Positions 24,618 through 31,361 of a DNA stretch of 64,000 nucleotides are shown here, piece by piece. Under the pieces are notes generated by a model, which was not told the origin of the DNA, searched no databases, and saw only the letters and a program-made list of their open reading frames with translations. How positions within the stretch are numbered: the stretch's first letter is position 1; each line of letters opens with the position of its first letter. The stretch comes from an uncultured Bacteroidales bacterium (lineage in GTDB: Bacteria; Bacteroidota; Bacteroidia; Bacteroidales; Bacteroidaceae): assembly GCA_902779875.1 (NCBI GenBank), contig CACZCX010000008.1:88619-152618 (forward strand), in the 5' to 3' direction. A program made the position numbers and the translations under genes.

Positions 24618-24947
24618 ATGTTCAGGTTTTTCTTATCCTCGATATCCACTTTCGATGCAATCGCGTTCGTAATCATCATACTGGCAACCATAGCCGCCGC
24701 ATGGAAAGCCCCCTACAGGATCAGGCTGATAGGCAAACTGACCGAAGCCATATTCCTGACGTCCTTATCGGTCCAGGTCCTCTCATTCACTATAAGGCTA
24801 CAGGAACAGCCCTATAGGGGAGGTGACTTACACGTACAAACTGTTTTCTGTGATGACTTCAGGGCAATGGCTGCCCTCATCATACTGGCCGCCGTCGCCT
24901 ACATAATCAACAACATCCTCTACATAATCCGCACCCCACGCCTCTAA
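24618..24947 (+). CDS. Small membrane protein 2, cassette 2
   Basis: 109 residues with three hydrophobic segments. AAWKAPYRIRLIGKLTEAIF keeps the Trp-Lys-Ala-Pro...Gly pattern seen in the other small proteins of both cassettes, and the C-terminus ILYIIRTPRL is nearly the same as in cassette 1. The stop TAA (24945-24947) overlaps the stop of the convergent nspC gene (TAG, 24946-24944). Confidence 0.62.
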   Translation: MFRFFLSSISTFDAIAFVIIILATIAAAWKAPYRIRLIGKLTEAIFLTSLSVQVLSFTIRLQEQPYRGGDLHVQTVFCDDFRAMAALIILAAVAYIINNILYIIRTPRL

Positions 24948-26095
24948 AGCCTCGACTTGAAGTCGGTGTAGCCGAAAGATTTCAGAAGGGTGTAGTCGGA
25001 GCCCTGCTTGAGGTAGATTGACGGCAGGGGCATGCCGTTGAAGGTATTGTTCTTGACCATGGAGTAGATGGCCATATCCTCAAAAACCAGGACCTGACCC
25101 TCCTTAAGCGGGCTGTCAAAAGAGTACTCCCCTATTATATCGCCCGATAAGCAGGTCGGGCCGCCGAGTCGGTATGTATAAGCTTTCTCGCCCGGCTGTC
25201 CGCTGTCACGCAAAGGGGGCCGATAAGGCATCTCCAGCACATCGGGCATATGACATGCGGCCGATGTATCCAGGATGGCGATATCCATGGCACCTGCGTG
25301 ATGCTGCACCTCGAGTACCTCGGTATGCAGATAACCGGCATTGAGGGCGATCGCCTCACCCGGCTCCAGATAGACCGTAACGCCGTAACCATCCTTCATG
25401 CGGTTGATGCAGCGCTCCAGACGCGGAATATCGTAATCAGCGCGGGTAATATGGTGCCCGCCGCCGAAATTCACCCATTTCATCTTGGGGAGCCACTCAC
25501 GGAACTGCTCCTCAAAGCCGTCCAGCGTGGTCTCCAGGTCATCAGAATTCTGCTCGCAGAGAGTATGGAAATGCAGACCGTCAAGCAGTTCCAACAGTGC
25601 AGGGTTCTGTCCCATTCCATCGCGGAATTCATCAAGCGTAACACCCAGACGGCTTCCCTTGGCGCACGGGTCATAGATTGCATGCTCTGCGGGCTGAGTT
25701 GAGATCTGCGGATTGATACGCAGGCCCACCTGCAGCCCAGCCTCCTTAGCCCTTAAGCCAAACAGCGACAGCTGACGTATGGAATTGAAAACGATATGGT
25801 CGCAGATAGAGAGGATCTCCGGCATATCCTCCTCACGGAACGCCGGAGAGAAAATGTGATTCTCGCGCCCGGGCATCTCCTCGTGGCACAGTCGGGCCTC
25901 AAACAGCCCGCTAGCTGTAGCACCGCAGAGATAGTCCGATACAAGCGGATATACAGCATAGCAGCTGAACGCCTTCTGAGCCAGCAGGATGCGGCATCCG
26001 GTACGGTCCATCACGCTGCGAAGCACCTTGAGGTTCTCCACAAGGCGGTCGCGGTCAATCACGTAACACGGCGTATGCAGTTGCTCTGCGTTCAT
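24944..26095 (-). CDS. nspC: Carboxynorspermidine decarboxylase
   Basis: A 383-residue PLP enzyme of the alanine-racemase-fold decarboxylases. The PLP lysine lies in LAQKAFSC (about residue 42), and HFHTLCEQ, NFGGGHH, EPGEA and the Cys-containing GPTCLSGD substrate motif follow. The start TPCYVIDRDRLVENL is typical. It converts carboxyspermidine/carboxynorspermidine to spermidine/norspermidine and is the last step of the pathway encoded by the upstream genes. It lies 11 bp after the dehydrogenase gene. Confidence 0.95.
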   Translation of the reverse strand: MNAEQLHTPCYVIDRDRLVENLKVLRSVMDRTGCRILLAQKAFSCYAVYPLVSDYLCGATASGLFEARLCHEEMPGRENHIFSPAFREEDMPEILSICDHIVFNSIRQLSLFGLRAKEAGLQVGLRINPQISTQPAEHAIYDPCAKGSRLGVTLDEFRDGMGQNPALLELLDGLHFHTLCEQNSDDLETTLDGFEEQFREWLPKMKWVNFGGGHHITRADYDIPRLERCINRMKDGYGVTVYLEPGEAIALNAGYLHTEVLEVQHHAGAMDIAILDTSAACHMPDVLEMPYRPPLRDSGQPGEKAYTYRLGGPTCLSGDIIGEYSFDSPLKEGQVLVFEDMAIYSMVKNNTFNGMPLPSIYLKQGSDYTLLKSFGYTDFKSRL

Positions 26096-26106: not shown

Positions 26107-27372
26107 TCAGTCTACAAGTACAGGATTCTCATCAACAACCCAGGGCAGGCCCCACTTGTTCAGGCCCTCCATGTAGGGATCGGGATCGAACTCCTCAACG
26201 TTGAACACGCCTGCACCCTTCCAAGTACCGGTCATGACCATTGCGGTTCCGATCATAGCGGGAACGCCGGTGGTGTATGAGATGGCCTGTGAGCCCAGCT
26301 CCTTGTAGCACTCCTGATGGTCGCACACGTTGTATATCTTTATGCTGCGCTTCTTGCCGTCCTTGGTGCCGGTGTATATGCAACCTATGTTGGTCTTGCC
26401 CACTGTGCGCGGACCCAGCGATGCGGGATCGGGCAGCAGAGCCTTGAGGAACTGGATAGGAACAATCTCGCGACCCTCAAACATGACGGGATCGGTGCGG
26501 AGCATGCCTACGTTCTCAAGACACTTCATGTGTGTGAGGTAGCTCTGTCCGAATGTCATGAAGAAACGGATTCTCTTTACGCCGGGTATGTTCTTGGCGA
26601 GTGACTCAATCTCCTCATGATGAAGCAGATACATATCTTTCATGCCTACCTGCTCAAAGTTGTACTCGCGCTTTATCTCCATGGGCTTGGTCTCTACCCA
26701 ATGGCCGTTCTCCCAATATGAACCGTTGGCCGATACCTCCCTGAGGTTGATCTCGGGGTTGAAGTTGGTGGCAAAGGGATAACCGTGGTCACCGCCGTTG
26801 CAGTCCAGTATGTCGATGGTATCGATCTGGTCAAAATAGTGTTTGAGGGCATATGCTGTGAATACGCTGGTCACGCCGGGATCGAATCCGGTTCCCAGTA
26901 TTCCCATGATGCCGGCGTCCTGGAATCGCTTCTGATAGGCCCACTGCCATGAGTAGTCAAAGTAGGCGGTGAAGCCCTGCTCCTTGCAGCGCTTCTCGTA
27001 GATCTTGCGCCACTCGGGATCCTCGGTGTCCTCGGGCTCGTAGTTGGCGGAGTCTACGTAATGTACGCCGCATGCCAGGCAGGCGTCCATGATGGTGAGG
27101 TCCTGATACGGCAGGGCCAGGTTCAGTACTACGTCGGGCTTTACGCTCTTGATCAGGGCTATCAGCTCGTCCACGCTGTCGGCGTTCACCTTAGCTGTAG
27201 TGATCTTGGAGCGGCTCTTTCCCTGGGCCTCGATCTTTCTCTTAAGGTCGTCACACTTGCTTACCGTACGGCTGGCAATGCAAATCTCGTTGAACACTGC
27301 GTCGTTCTGGGCGCATTTCTGGATTGCTACCTGGGCTACTCCTCCGCAGCCTATTACTAAAACCTTTCCCAT
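26107..27372 (-). CDS. Carboxynorspermidine synthase (saccharopine dehydrogenase family)
   Basis: 421 residues from ATG 27372 (MGKVLVIGCGGVAQVA); a TTG 18 bases upstream is also in frame but less likely. A Rossmann NADPH-binding motif GCGGVA is at the N-terminus, followed by the saccharopine-dehydrogenase core (YVDSANYEPED, GTGFDPGVTSVF, DCNGGDHGYPF). It reductively joins putrescine (or diaminopropane) with aspartate semialdehyde to give the carboxy-polyamine that NspC decarboxylates. An inverted-repeat element separates it from speB upstream. Confidence 0.92.
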   Translation of the reverse strand: MGKVLVIGCGGVAQVAIQKCAQNDAVFNEICIASRTVSKCDDLKRKIEAQGKSRSKITTAKVNADSVDELIALIKSVKPDVVLNLALPYQDLTIMDACLACGVHYVDSANYEPEDTEDPEWRKIYEKRCKEQGFTAYFDYSWQWAYQKRFQDAGIMGILGTGFDPGVTSVFTAYALKHYFDQIDTIDILDCNGGDHGYPFATNFNPEINLREVSANGSYWENGHWVETKPMEIKREYNFEQVGMKDMYLLHHEEIESLAKNIPGVKRIRFFMTFGQSYLTHMKCLENVGMLRTDPVMFEGREIVPIQFLKALLPDPASLGPRTVGKTNIGCIYTGTKDGKKRSIKIYNVCDHQECYKELGSQAISYTTGVPAMIGTAMVMTGTWKGAGVFNVEEFDPDPYMEGLNKWGLPWVVDENPVLVD

Positions 27373-27404
27373 TTTTATATGTGTTATCAACTAATTCTTA
27401 CTCC

Positions 27405-27541: not shown

Positions 27542-28399
27542 TCATGACTTGAGAGCTAAGAGCAATTCTCTAATTATTTTGCAGGCGGCTGCTGTAGACG
27601 CCCCTGTCTGGTCGTATGGAGGGCACAATTCGTTCACATCCAAACCCACTATGTTGCAACCTCCGCAGACGGTTATTAATGCATCGTACAATTGCATGAA
27701 GGTGACGCCGCCGTACTCGGGGGTGCCGGTGCCGGGGAATACTGAGGGGTCCATTACGTCCAGGTCGATGGTGAAGTAGACGGGTACCTGACCTAAGGCG
27801 GCAACGGTTTCCTTCAGGCCGTCAAAGCTGAAGGGGTGCAGGTCGGTGTGACCGGCGCGGGCCCAACGCCACTCGGCACGCTCGCCGGAGCGGATTCCGA
27901 ACTGGTGGATGCGGCCGTCGCCTGTCAGGTCGTGGCAGCGGCGGATCACGCAGGCATGCGAGAGCTTTACGTCGAGGTAGTCGTCACGCAGGTCTGTGTG
28001 GGCGTCAAAGTGGATTATGTGAACGTCGGGGTATTTCCTGAATACCTCACGGAAGGCTCCCAGGGTTACCAGGTGCTCACCTCCTATCATGAACGGGATC
28101 TTACCGTCGGCAAGTATCACCGATGTACGCTCCGATATCTGGTCCAATGCCTTATCGGCACTGCCTATGCAGAGTTCTATGTCACCGCTGTCAAACACGC
28201 TGATGTCCTCCAGGTCGCGGTCCTGCCAGGGGCTGTAGGTCTCCAGTCCGAATGACTCGGAGCGGATGGCATGCGGCGCAAACCTTGTGCCGGGGCGGAA
28301 TGACGTGGTGGAGTCAAACGGCGCACCGAACAGCACTATGCGCGCATCGGTATAATCGGCATCACAGCCTATGAATGTCTCAACGTTCCTCTGCAACAT
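27542..28399 (-). CDS. speB: Agmatinase
   Basis: A 285-residue ureohydrolase. Mn ligands are visible in GGEHL, HFDAHTDLR and TIDLDVMDPS, and the C-terminal GLDVNELCPPYD fits agmatinase rather than arginase. It hydrolyses agmatine to putrescine plus urea, linking SpeA (agmatine) to the later polyamine genes. It starts 3 bp after the speE stop, so translation is probably coupled. Confidence 0.95.
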   Translation of the reverse strand: MLQRNVETFIGCDADYTDARIVLFGAPFDSTTSFRPGTRFAPHAIRSESFGLETYSPWQDRDLEDISVFDSGDIELCIGSADKALDQISERTSVILADGKIPFMIGGEHLVTLGAFREVFRKYPDVHIIHFDAHTDLRDDYLDVKLSHACVIRRCHDLTGDGRIHQFGIRSGERAEWRWARAGHTDLHPFSFDGLKETVAALGQVPVYFTIDLDVMDPSVFPGTGTPEYGGVTFMQLYDALITVCGGCNIVGLDVNELCPPYDQTGASTAAACKIIRELLLALKS

Positions 28400-28402
28400 G
28401 AC

Positions 28403-29266
28403 TTAATCGTATATGCGCTCCACATCGGCCAGCATGCGCTCCACGTAGGCGGGCAGCGCGAAACAGCCTTTGTGCAGGTTCGTAGTGTAATAATCGGTCT
28501 TGATTCCAAGCTGGTTCCAGGCCTCGGCATCGAGGTCGATCACCGGACGGAACTTCTTGGATGCGAATCCGAACAGCCAGTAACCCGACGGGTATGTAGG
28601 AATATGAGCCTGATACACGCGGCTTATGGGGAAGCTGTTCACGATACGCTTGTGAGCCTTCTGGGTCTCTATGCGGTCCTCCTCGTAGAAGGGACTCTGA
28701 TGCTGGTTCACCATGATTCCATCGGCCTTGAGTGCCTTGTAGCAGCTGCCGTAGAACTCACGGGTGAGCAGACTCTCGCCAGGTCCGTAGAAACCGGCCG
28801 AGTCAACTATTATAAGGTCGTACTCGTTCTCAATATGGCGGATGAATCGCAGCGCGTTCTCGGTGTAGATGGTCACGCGCGGGTCATCGAGTGACTCGGC
28901 CATCTCGGGGAAATACTCGCGGCAGGCCTGTACCACGCCCTCGTTTATCTCAATAAGGTCGATGGTTTTGACCGTCTTGTATTTGAGCAGCTCGCGAACC
29001 ACGCCTCCGTCACCGGAACCGAACACCAGTATACGTTCTATTGCAGGATTCACGGCCATAGGTACGTGTGACAGCATCTCATCATAAATGAACTCGTCAC
29101 GCTGTGTGAATATGATGTAGCCGTCCACAGCCAGGAAACGTCCGAACTCGGGTGACTCGAATATATCGACCCTACCAAGGTCGTTCTCGGCCGAATAAAG
29201 ATGCTTGTCAACCTTTACGGAGAACTTTACATTGGGAGTATGAAGCTCAGTAAACCAGAATTCCAT
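28403..29266 (-). CDS. speE: Spermidine synthase-family aminopropyltransferase
   Basis: 287 residues from ATG 29266 (MEFWFTELHTPNVKF); a TTG two codons upstream is the alternative. The SAM-like binding motif is VFGSGDGGVVRE, with DLIEINEGVVQACREYF, and the conserved YxxDS-type loop DLIIVDSAGFYGPGESL. It transfers an aminopropyl group from decarboxylated SAM to a diamine. No speD (SAM decarboxylase) is in the window, and the operon also encodes the dcSAM-independent carboxy route, so its true substrate or donor deserves care. Confidence 0.9.
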   Translation of the reverse strand: MEFWFTELHTPNVKFSVKVDKHLYSAENDLGRVDIFESPEFGRFLAVDGYIIFTQRDEFIYDEMLSHVPMAVNPAIERILVFGSGDGGVVRELLKYKTVKTIDLIEINEGVVQACREYFPEMAESLDDPRVTIYTENALRFIRHIENEYDLIIVDSAGFYGPGESLLTREFYGSCYKALKADGIMVNQHQSPFYEEDRIETQKAHKRIVNSFPISRVYQAHIPTYPSGYWLFGFASKKFRPVIDLDAEAWNQLGIKTDYYTTNLHKGCFALPAYVERMLADVERIYD

Positions 29267-29278
29267 GGGCAAACAGAA

Positions 29279-30736
29279 TCAATATGTTGTACTTTCCTTA
29301 ATCACATTCAGACGCTCAACCTTCTCATCCTCAGGGCCTGTGAGCTGGCATCCCTTCTCCTTGGCGTAGAGGATATAGTCGATGATCTCCTGCGTAATGC
29401 GCTCACCCGGCGCCAGGATAGGAATTCCGGGAGGATAGCACATGACGAACTCCGTACATATACGTCCGTTGGTCTCGCGGATGGGAATCATCTCCTCCTT
29501 GGGCGCGTAGAAAGCCTCCTGCGGAGTCATGACCACCGACGGGTTGATGTACTCATGGTCAAACAGACCTGAACGGTCCTTGCTGTATCGGCGCTTCACG
29601 TCGACAAGGGCGCTCACCAGTCGCTCCACCTCACGCATGCGGTCACCTATCGATATGTAAGCCAACACGTTACCCATATCACCCAACTCCAGCTGGATAT
29701 CATACTCGTCACGTAGCAAGTCATAAACCTCAATGCCGGCAAGACCGATGTCCAAGGTGTAGACGGTCAGTTTGGTGGGGTCAAAATCATACACGCTGTC
29801 ACCGTTGATCAGCTCCTTGCCGTAGGCGTAGTAGCCGCCTATCTTGTTGATCTCGGTGCGGGCGTAATCGGCAATACGCATAACCTCGGCGAACAGCTCC
29901 CTGCCGCGCAGGGCCAGGTTGCGGCGTGATATGTCAAGACTTGAAATAAGCAGGTACGATGCGCTCGTGGTCTGAGTGAGGTTAATCACCTGACGCACAT
30001 AACCGGCACTCACGTTAGGACCGGTGAGCAGGAACGAACTCTGGGTCAGGCTGCCGCCGGACTTGTGCATCGAGACCGATGACATATCGGCCCCTGCCGC
30101 CATTGCGGTCACAGGCATGTTCTCACCAAAGTAGAAATGTGTGCCGTGAGCCTCATCGACCAACACCATCATGCCGTGCTCATGGGCAATCTCAACGATT
30201 TTCTTGAGATTTGAGCAGATTCCGTAGTATGTGGGGTTGTTCACCAGGATGGCCTTTGCCTCGGGGTTCTCCTCGATGGCACGCTCCACCTGCGATATCT
30301 TCATGCCCAGGGCTATACCCAGGCGGTTATCCGTATCGGGATTCACGTAGATGGGAGTCGCGCCGTTCACAACCAGGGCGTTGATGACGCTGCGGTGCAC
30401 GTTACGCGGCAGGATGATTTTCTCACCGCTCTTGCAGGCGGTAAGCACCATAGTCTGTACGGCCGATGTGGTACCGCCCACCATGAGGAATGCATGTGCG
30501 GCGCCGAATGCCTCGGCGGCCAGTTCTTCGGCCTCCTTGATTACTGAAATGGGATGACAGAGATTATCCAGGGGTTTCATCGAGTTGACATCCAACTCAA
30601 CGCACTGCTTACCGAGCAGTGAAACCAGTTCGGGGTTTCCCCTACCTCTTTTGTGACCGGGTACATCGAAAGGTACCACTCTGTTCCTGCGGAACTCCTG
30701 AAGGGCTTCATAAACGGGAGCTTTTCGCTGATCCAT
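29279..30736 (-). CDS. speA: Arginine decarboxylase, aminotransferase-fold
   Basis: A 485-residue member of the Orn/Lys/Arg decarboxylase group of Bacillus SpeA type. The N-terminal VPFDVPGHKRGRGNPEL, VGGTTSAVQTM and the PLP lysine in SVSMHKSGGSLTQSS (~residue 226) are present, as is VDEAHGTH. The C-terminal domain includes CYPPGIPILAPGE. It makes agmatine from arginine and is the first gene of the operon speA-speE-speB-synthase-nspC. It is preceded by a ~330-nt structured leader with an internal terminator. Confidence 0.93.
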   Translation of the reverse strand: MDQRKAPVYEALQEFRRNRVVPFDVPGHKRGRGNPELVSLLGKQCVELDVNSMKPLDNLCHPISVIKEAEELAAEAFGAAHAFLMVGGTTSAVQTMVLTACKSGEKIILPRNVHRSVINALVVNGATPIYVNPDTDNRLGIALGMKISQVERAIEENPEAKAILVNNPTYYGICSNLKKIVEIAHEHGMMVLVDEAHGTHFYFGENMPVTAMAAGADMSSVSMHKSGGSLTQSSFLLTGPNVSAGYVRQVINLTQTTSASYLLISSLDISRRNLALRGRELFAEVMRIADYARTEINKIGGYYAYGKELINGDSVYDFDPTKLTVYTLDIGLAGIEVYDLLRDEYDIQLELGDMGNVLAYISIGDRMREVERLVSALVDVKRRYSKDRSGLFDHEYINPSVVMTPQEAFYAPKEEMIPIRETNGRICTEFVMCYPPGIPILAPGERITQEIIDYILYAKEKGCQLTGPEDEKVERLNVIKESTTY

Positions 30737-31084
30737 CTACTGCAAAATGTTTTTAAAGTTCAACCATCCAGCCTTTTTCCCGCCCCTTCTGACAGGGGAC
30801 AAAAAAAAGACATAAACAATAAAACCTTTCTTGTTTACGTCTGCCATACGGGGAATCCTCCCCTCAAGCATTGCCTTAAATCAGAGTCTATATAGTAAAC
30901 AAATACTTTTACTACTCTTCTTATTGACCGTTTTCCAAGTCGGGCGGTTGTTGACAACCATCGGTTATAAAGTAACCAACTCAAAAAAAAGGGTACGTTA
31001 CCGTACACAATGTGCGTTATGCGCACAACTCAATAATAGGAAAACTCTGATTCAATCCATTCTGCTTTCCTGACTGCAAAGGTA
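30737..31084 (-). promoter_or_regulatory. Structured leader of the polyamine operon (candidate riboswitch)
   Basis: The -7 box TACCTTTG (31084-31077) starts a leader of about 330 nt. AATCAGAGT (31052-31044) is perfectly complementary to ACTCTGATT (30887-30879), closing a domain that contains five small hairpins: 31027-31011 (TGTGCG/CGCACA), 31006-30993 (GTACG/CGTAC), 30977-30963 (GGTTA/TAACC), 30959-30946 (GGTTG/CAACC) and 30914-30893 (TAGTAAA/TTTACTA). Then come a GGGG/CCCC hairpin (30863-30850), a strong terminator (30841-30801) and another GGGG/CCCC hairpin (30798-30783), before the speA ATG. This order of closed domain plus terminator is that of an attenuating riboswitch. No described aptamer was recognised, and no leader peptide is convincing. 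Confidence 0.6.
30801..30841 (-). terminator. Intrinsic terminator inside the speA leader (attenuator)
   Basis: Minus strand: GACGTAAACAA (30841-30831) pairs with TTGTTTATGTC (30819-30809) with one G-U pair, followed at once by eight T (30808-30801). It lies 65 nt before speA and would stop transcription of the operon unless an alternative fold wins. Confidence 0.75.
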
Positions 31085-31120
31085 CACCTTTTTTATTACC
31101 CCCAAACCTTTTTATAAAAA

Positions 31121-31241
31121 AAAACTGCAACATTAGGAAGGTTTAGCTCGACGGCCCGAAGGGGAAAGTCAACCGTCCCTAATGTGTTAGTTTTCCCGCA
31201 AAACTGCAACATTAGGAACCGTCCCTAATGTTGCAGTTTTT
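31121..31241. repeat. Family A repeat, copy 7 (variant with loop insertion)
   Basis: The left arm AAAACTGCAACATTAGG is intact; the first loop holds the same ~40-nt insertion as copy 6 (TTTAGCTCGACGGCCCGAAG and onward), identical as far as read. The joint is CCCGC; the second hairpin is AAAACTGCAACATTAGG-AACCGTC-CCTAATGTTGCAGTTTT. It lies between the polyamine operon promoter and tRNA-Pro. Confidence 0.88.
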
Positions 31242-31286
31242 AAAAAATCAATTATCTTTGCACCGCTTTTCAGGAAGAGAAGCTTT

Positions 31287-31361
31287 CGGGATGTAGTTCA
31301 GTCCGGTTAGAATGCCTGGTTTGGGACCAGGTGGTCGAAGGTTCGAATCCTTTCATCCCGA
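31287..31361 (+). tRNA. tRNA-Pro (anticodon TGG)
   Basis: Acceptor CGGGATG (31287-31293) pairs with CATCCCG (ending 31360), discriminator A31361; anticodon stem CCTGG/CCAGG with loop TTTGGGA gives TGG. CCA is not encoded. The upstream block TTATCTTTGCACCGCTTTTCAG matches that before tRNA-His, including the -7 box TATCTTTG. Confidence 0.97.

Follow-up and report, generated by a model that had tools for sequence, protein, structure and literature searches.

A probable attenuator RNA at the head of spermidine operons in Bacteroidales and Bacillota

Introduction

Spermidine attracts interest for its bearing on host health, and a leader RNA ahead of a spermidine operon offers a handle on its control in the bacteria that carry it. 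The locus studied here belongs to an uncultured Bacteroidales bacterium (Bacteroidaceae; assembly GCA_902779875.1, contig CACZCX010000008.1, positions 88,619-152,618 of the forward strand), and the whole stretch of 64,000 nt that was analyzed is called the window. On its minus strand, a leader region is followed by speA, speE, agmatinase, carboxy(nor)spermidine dehydrogenase (CASDH) and carboxy(nor)spermidine decarboxylase (CASDC), in this order. An initial annotation took the leader for a riboswitch-like attenuator of a polyamine operon. What kind of RNA is this, which relatives does it have, and what might it sense? We conclude that the leader is very probably an attenuator RNA of a spermidine operon. 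The explanation that we favor as a whole, with a probability of roughly 0.6, is a cis-acting transcription attenuator whose core, when held by a polyamine, would turn the operon off.

Results and discussion

Operon and leader in the window

The features of the locus are collected in Table 1. No NCBIfam equivalog above cut-off was obtained for the speA-like decarboxylase, and the adjoining agmatinase suggests that its substrate is arginine. The operon holds speE beside the carboxyspermidine pathway and has no speD. Upstream of the leader promoter, a hairpin-rich intergenic repeat (31110-31250, direct and inverted repeats around AAAACTGCAACATTAGG) separates it from a tRNA gene (31287-31361, plus strand).

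Table 1. Features of the leader RNA and the operon, with positions in the window
Feature	Position	Strand	Evidence or remark
Predicted promoter, -7-like box TACCTTTGC, Bacteroidetes-type	31076..31084	minus	sequence; directly upstream of the leader RNA
Pa 5' strand (AGGAAAG), 5' hairpin	31065..31071	minus	can pair with 31044-31038; Bacteroidales swap test
Pa 3' strand (TTTTCCT)	31038..31044	minus	Bacteroidales swap test
P1 (closing helix) 5' strand AATCAGAGT, within the Pa loop	31044..31052	minus	pairs with 30887-30879; covariation across lineages
P1 3' strand ACTCTGATT	30879..30887	minus	pairing and covariation across lineages
P2 5' strand (TTATTGA)	31030..31036	minus	near-invariant in 40-sequence alignment, two phyla
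P2 3' strand (TCAATAA)	30921..30927	minus	40-sequence alignment
P3 hairpin (31027-31022/31016-31011)	31011..31027	minus	fold; predicted in 16/16 Bacteroidales
P4 hairpin (31006-31002/30997-30993), then T8 run 30990-30983	30993..31006	minus	predicted in 14/16 Bacteroidales
P5 arm (30982-30976 with 30943-30937), inner hairpins	30937..30982	minus	outer stem predicted in 14/16 Bacteroidales
P6 hairpin GTAGTAAA / TTTACTAT (30915-30908/30899-30892), then ATATAGACTCT	30892..30915	minus	fold
Candidate antiterminator strand TTGTTTAC, inside P6	30895..30902	minus	complement of 30838-30831; genus-level only
Small hairpin between P1 and terminator	30850..30863	minus	fold
Intrinsic terminator stem (30841-30831/30819-30809)	30809..30841	minus	11 bp including one G-U; -12.5 kcal/mol
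T8 tract	30801..30808	minus	sequence
speA-like Orn/Lys/Arg decarboxylase (OKR_DC_1)	29279..30736	minus	Pfam PF01276, 1.4e-70
speE, polyamine aminopropyltransferase	28403..29272	minus	NF002010, 332.6 bits (cut-off 260)
Agmatinase (speB)	27542..28399	minus	TIGR01230, 268.2 bits (cut-off 174.3)
CASDH	26107..27390	minus	NF043000, 413.7 bits, under cut-off 800; Sacchrp_dh domains
CASDC (nspC)	24944..26095	minus	TIGR01047, 435.7 bits (cut-off 409)

The 5' end of the leader RNA is predicted near 31071 from the promoter-like box TACCTTTGC, which we take to be a match to the Bacteroidetes promoter consensus TAnnTTTG. Among the Bacteroidales leaders with upstream letters that were inspected, most have a similar box in this position. 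The perfect 9-bp helix that the initial annotation had placed between 31052-31044 and 30887-30879 is exact; it falls within a listed repeat (I7, 12 nt at 92%), and in the predicted fold of 31070-30870 it belongs to a run of 14 bp. The short hairpins that it was said to enclose recur in the fold as hairpins of 5-8 bp, and the 11-bp terminator with eight T ahead of the speA start at 30736 is likewise present (Table 1). The 201-nt domain folds at -55.4 kcal/mol, compared with -40.3 ± 4.1 for 200 shuffles, one of which was as good (z -3.68); with the terminator included, none of 200 shuffles was as good (z -4.85). As the 5' strand of P1 lies within the loop of the possible hairpin Pa, the domain probably goes beyond a closed multiloop and forms a pseudoknot. 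Judged from this order of strands, the first ~190 nt of the leader probably form a pseudoknotted core, made up of the Pa/P1 pseudoknot and P2-P6. The small hairpin at 30863-30850 reads GGGGA/TCCCC in the window, and most other members of the genus have GGC../..GCC within GTAC/GTAC.

Conservation within the genus and family

A 296-nt leader query matched 20 of the 37 genomes of the window's genus, two of them over the last third only, at contig ends. The core is near-invariant in the 15 full leaders, and the letters of the terminator stem do not vary in 16. Insertions and deletions fall in the P5 arm, and the P4 stem by eye has changes on both sides. P1 showed no variation in 16 genus rows, so the case for covariation of the closing helix has to be made from other lineages. 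When RNAalifold was run on the genus sequences only, next to no covariation was seen (2 of 70 pairs). In two members, one RNA has lost the 5' strand of P5 (L063, 2703-2856), and the other has a long insertion in the peripheral arm (L069, 2603-2857).

The first covariance model of the leader, R1, located the RNA in at least 17 of 399 family genomes, all from the same genus, with a single match in each genome except for two fragmentary second matches, both at contig ends. This tally, like those for Bacillota, Bacteroidota and Bacilli below, is a lower bound, with 6-21 first-look candidates scored per genome. Weak BLAST matches elsewhere in the family (L035-L038) were inspected and dropped as chance. 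The RNA was not found at the speA loci of a genus mate (G017, L056) and of members of genus g22 (L057-L060), where speA has 85-87% identity. The idea of a genus-only element, suggested by this survey, was overturned by the speA loci of other lineages.

Distribution in two phyla

The best 80 of 560 speA relatives belong for the most part to gut and rumen Bacteroidales and Bacillota, and an nhmmer profile found the core in 62 of these 80 loci. At E <= 0.01, R1 matched 60 of 85 speA loci, always upstream and on the same strand, and 14 of the 60 (L061-L074) belong to the window's genus. The other 18 of the 80 leaders lack the core, and no common element was seen by eye in 17 of them (all but L100) together with L056. 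One Clostridia metagenome-assembled genome has a different, structured-looking leader with a terminator-like end before its speA (L138:2670-3000, by eye). An alignment of 40 cores revealed the strongly conserved blocks TTATTGA, AAGTTGGTTAC, ACTTG, GGTCAATA, GAGTAGTAAAAGTA and CTATATAGACTCT.

A model of the 3' core, R2, matched at least 26 of 398 Bacillota genomes, once in each, and at least 1 of 395 Bacteroidota genomes, namely the window's own. Since other Bacteroidales carriers known from the speA loci gave no match in the Bacteroidota survey, that sample missed them, and the tallies are to be read as lower bounds. The RNA looks rare in Bacteroidota, where it probably arrived along with the operon. 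In two Bacillota genomes, a c-di-GMP-I riboswitch lies about 1 kb from the polyamine leader (L154:2646-2737 and L155:2659-2750).

The conservation also bears on attenuation by a ribosome translating a leader peptide. The minus strand does offer short frames that start with ATG, and the two listed 80-aa ORFs across the leader region lie on the opposite (plus) strand. The conserved positions are paired and loop bases, however, and the core differs in length by 1, 2, 16 and more bases between relatives, so no frame is kept. We therefore regard a leader peptide as a very remote prospect.

Covariation and predicted helices

The pairing of the closing helix was examined with a swap test, in which the pairing of each 5' domain with its own 3' strand was compared with pairings exchanged between sequences. 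The set comprised 66 sequences, reduced from 74 by removal of short and duplicate ones; L167 and L170-L172 had been dropped as the start of P2 was unrecognizable. Own pairings reached -10.80, compared with -9.27 ± 0.20 after 200 swaps, in rows that share kinship, as do those of all swap tests here. The difference held within each lineage: -15.36 versus -12.12 ± 0.84 in Bacteroidales (12 sequences, with only L073 and L074 from the genus; 0 of 5000 swaps as low), -12.74 versus -11.31 ± 0.29 in other Bacillota (44 sequences, three of them the Bacilli L157, L158 and L165, here as in the terminator tests; 0 of 5000), and -18.73 versus -17.48 ± 0.42 in Bacilli (16 sequences; 17 of 5000). Five other Bacteroidales segments used as controls gave z from -2.2 to +1.2; the segment at -2.2 overlaps an extension of P1, and one at -2.0 does not. 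P1 thus covaries between lineages, and the possibility raised with the initial annotation, a closing helix that shows no covariation among homologs, does not apply. Own pairings of Pa in Bacteroidales also beat the swapped ones, which reached them in 2 of 5000 swaps (9 distinct pairs).

For most of the other helices, sequence comparison supports the fold to varying degrees. P3 is predicted in all 16 Bacteroidales, five of them from the genus, despite different letters. P4, also with different letters, is absent in L088 and L092, and the outer stem of P5 is not predicted in L083 and L106. The near-invariance of P2 in 40 sequences from two phyla means that its pairing with 30927-30921 is little tested by covariation. 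In an alignment of the 3' core with 25 distinct rows, 95.6% of the cells pair, compared with at most 50.8% in slid versions; P6 has 97.7% of cells paired, with mostly one-sided changes. Four of 19 pairs of the 3' core changed on both sides (1 of 500 shuffles), and the count of further pair types did not exceed the shuffles (496 of 500 as high). Taken as a whole, the comparisons point to a conserved, structured leader domain with covariation, found at P1 and Pa by the swap tests and, more weakly, among the pairs of the 3' core.

Genes downstream of the leader

Among the 26 Bacillota copies, nine precede speA, nine precede a SAM decarboxylase gene (speD) followed by speA, and seven precede CASDH. 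The identity of two of these nine SAM decarboxylases was checked with Pfam and NCBIfam, and the remaining seven carry names based on sequence similarity. The odd copy is a weak match (L174, E 0.001) with an unrelated gene downstream, which was excluded from the P1, terminator and antiterminator tests and is counted as the miss in the resulting link to polyamine genes of 25 of 26. In 20 Bacillota loci read up to 8.2 kb downstream, CASDH was present in 18; of the two exceptions, L195 ends at a contig end and L177 has speA and agmatinase, with CASDH not found in the 8.2 kb. The usual order is (speD)-speA-speE-speB-CASDH-CASDC, at times with one of the genes absent or uncalled, and six loci have CASDH-CASDC alone. 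What these operons mostly share is the carboxyspermidine route to spermidine. The initial view of a riboswitch-like attenuator leading a polyamine operon is well supported by the occurrence in two phyla, the link to spermidine genes in 25 of 26 copies and the covariation of P1. The finding goes beyond that view, as comparison across the phyla supports an RNA class of spermidine operons.

The gene content also speaks to what the leader might sense. We consider it probable that the leader is a direct metabolite sensor, and its ligand is slightly more likely than not a polyamine. The same attenuator could instead respond to a compound earlier in the pathway or beside it (arginine, agmatine, putrescine or decarboxylated SAM) and not to the end product, and could even be an ON switch; this would suit the window, where speA comes first, as well as the 9 of 25 Bacillota copies that lead into speA and the other 9 that lead into speD-speA. 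CASDH is, however, the leading gene in 7 of the 25 Bacillota survey loci and in 18 of the 20 from Bacilli, and six of the seven CASDH-first loci read further consist of CASDH-CASDC without speA. The last steps to spermidine are the common denominator, which argues against arginine or agmatine as the ligand, and we judge a sensor of upstream or side metabolites to be unlikely. Even less likely is a leader whose reader is a protein rather than a small molecule, for example an RNA-binding antiterminator or a ribosomal factor. The high sequence conservation would fit a protein site too, but the core is conserved across two phyla, both of which would need the same protein, and the unlabelled neighbors in 20 loci include no recurrent regulator-like gene, close relatives aside. 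A MerR-like ORF, named by eye, lies near the leader in L184 and L185 only, which are close relatives. Most likely, the leader is an OFF switch that responds to spermidine or to a closely related polyamine.

Relation to RF02440 and other known RNAs

The search of the leader against Rfam 15 gave no match; over the window, only tRNAs reached the gathering score, and nothing plausible appeared in the leader up to E = 10. The statement of the initial annotation that it recognized no described aptamer thus holds for the window and is incomplete for the class, in which a 54-nt module that is absent here corresponds to RF02440. This is the only related Rfam entry, a 54-position model named SpF59_sRNA or 'ldcC RNA' after the Streptococcus sRNA SpF59. 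Its reported sources are an sRNA screen in Streptococcus and Weinberg et al. 2017.

RF02440 was present in 1 of 12, 9 of 19 and 16 of 20 loci in three sets that were scanned; some of these loci lack the core, and the 16 of 20 are from core-bearing survey loci. In Bacilli it occurs in at least 20 of 249 genomes, three of which overlap with the 26 Bacillota survey genomes. All 20 matches carry the core, with the R2 match beginning ~45 nt past the end of the module. Nineteen of these core matches have E < 1e-15, representing 17 distinct sequences with many near relatives; the remaining one, L216 (E 0.013), is a weak match and a distant case. The Bacilli loci precede CASDH (18) or speA (2). We had also considered RF02440 as the aligned 5' hairpin, which was discarded as the module sits between the 5' strand of P1 and P2 in Bacillota. 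Its 54 positions end before P2 in the loci inspected and leave P2, P5, P6 and the terminator uncovered. RF02440 gave no match in the window at the gathering score or up to E = 10, none in the window's own genome at E <= 1, and none in seven core-bearing Bacteroidales loci (L074, L075, L082, L083, L088, L090 and L092), in the Lachnospiraceae loci L108, L110-L112 and L114, or in L120. Because RF02440 lies inside a larger core-bearing RNA and is absent from the window, the catalogued piece is, as far as sequence comparison can tell, one module of a larger leader RNA, and the window's copy is a subtype lacking it. A 54-nt orphan sRNA family is in this way extended to a full-length leader RNA with its helices and genes and, for Bacillota, an antiterminator that covaries; the comparison also reveals a subtype of gut and rumen Bacteroidales that is invisible to Rfam.

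A spermidine riboswitch that is a variant of SAM-I has been demonstrated as an OFF switch for spermidine (Salvail et al., 2023; PMC10853860); it has the four stems of SAM-I and is described from seven named Gram-positive genera. It resembles our leader in preceding polyamine genes (there speE, speB, speD and ldcC) and in using a terminator, whereas the core of the leader RNA here is larger and pseudoknotted (PMC10853860). No SAM riboswitch was matched in the window (up to E = 10) or in the 51 relatives' loci scanned, judged with the Rfam models. The odc1 and potE motifs (PMC8632094) and the speF motif (PMC11477304), which is described as alphaproteobacterial, likewise precede polyamine genes but are tied to other genes in the parts of these sources that treat them, and Rfam reports no match in the window. 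The polyamine terms searched do not occur in the retrieved text of PMC11109978, PMC6429828 and PMC7266159, and no polyamine motif was seen in that of PMC2864571. A description of the full leader RNA was not among the matches listed in our literature searches, in whose scope subscription papers mostly did not fall. We give even odds to a broader proposal, namely that polyamine riboswitches have a second class with no structural relation to the first, to which the leader belongs: a pseudoknotted RNA of ~200-300 nt, spread over Bacillota and passed to rumen Bacteroidales, that would sense spermidine or carboxyspermidine and shut the carboxyspermidine pathway by termination, with RF02440 as one module and the window as a streamlined subtype.

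Terminator and switching step

With a terminator-like hairpin defined as one of at most -9 kcal/mol followed by a T-rich tail, a terminator lies downstream of the core in 67 of 83 leaders, compared with 5 of 83 shuffled ones (by group, all 11 genus leaders, 3 of the 13 from other Bacteroidales and 53 of the 59 from Bacillota). The 5' arm of the terminator is complementary to a core strand around ACUUG, which is the 3' side of P5. Out of 158 windows per comparison, the one at ACUUG ranked in the best 10% in 42 of 53 leaders, that is in 42 of 49 Bacillota and 0 of 4 Bacteroidales. Pairing between the arm and the P5 3' strand reached -10.74 for own sequences and -8.59 ± 0.31 for swapped ones (0 of 5000); in Bacillota alone z was -6.5, compared with -0.1 to +2.3 for six control windows. 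The terminator 5' arm therefore covaries with the ACUUG strand in Bacillota, which implies a transcriptional attenuator. For the Bacillota relatives the comparison thus supports an expression platform of mutually exclusive structures, in which the P5 3' strand competes with the terminator.

The covariation also weighs on the possibility that the locus is the gene of a trans-acting sRNA that lies before speA by chance, as the name of RF02440 might suggest. A terminator directly after the domain would give an RNA of ~270 nt, and the Rfam type of RF02440 is sRNA. Polyamine genes nevertheless lie downstream on the same strand in 60 of 60, 25 of 26 and 20 of 20 loci, with differing gene orders, and the covariation of core and terminator implies regulated read-through. 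An independent sRNA gene is accordingly improbable, more so than a protein-read leader.

In the preferred explanation, the attenuator acting in cis, a folded core, which a bound polyamine most likely stabilizes (the genes point to spermidine in the first place), would let the terminator form and shut the operon. Without this stabilization, a strand of the core would capture the 5' arm of the terminator and transcription would continue. As P5 and the antiterminator are mutually exclusive, stabilization of the core would lead to termination, an OFF-switch logic that fits end-product feedback.

The antiterminator of the P5 strand was not seen in the four Bacteroidales leaders compared, in which L064 alone stands for the genus. 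Judged on this genus member, the best partner of the window's terminator arm is the P6 3' strand (30902-30895 with 30838-30831, 8 bp), which may be the competing strand in the window. When forced in a nested model without the pseudoknot, this P6/terminator alternative is less stable than the unforced fold, by 16 kcal/mol at full length and by 10 kcal/mol before the 3' arm is made. A T-to-C change in P6 breaks it in the genus member L015. As a wider feature, TTGTTTAC was rejected as antiterminator, as the terminator arm has a better partner in L075, L083 and L086 from other Bacteroidales. In the Bacilli L197-L215, a helix ahead of the terminator, ~10-150 nt past the core, seems by eye to use one strand of the outer P1 as well and may be a second switch.
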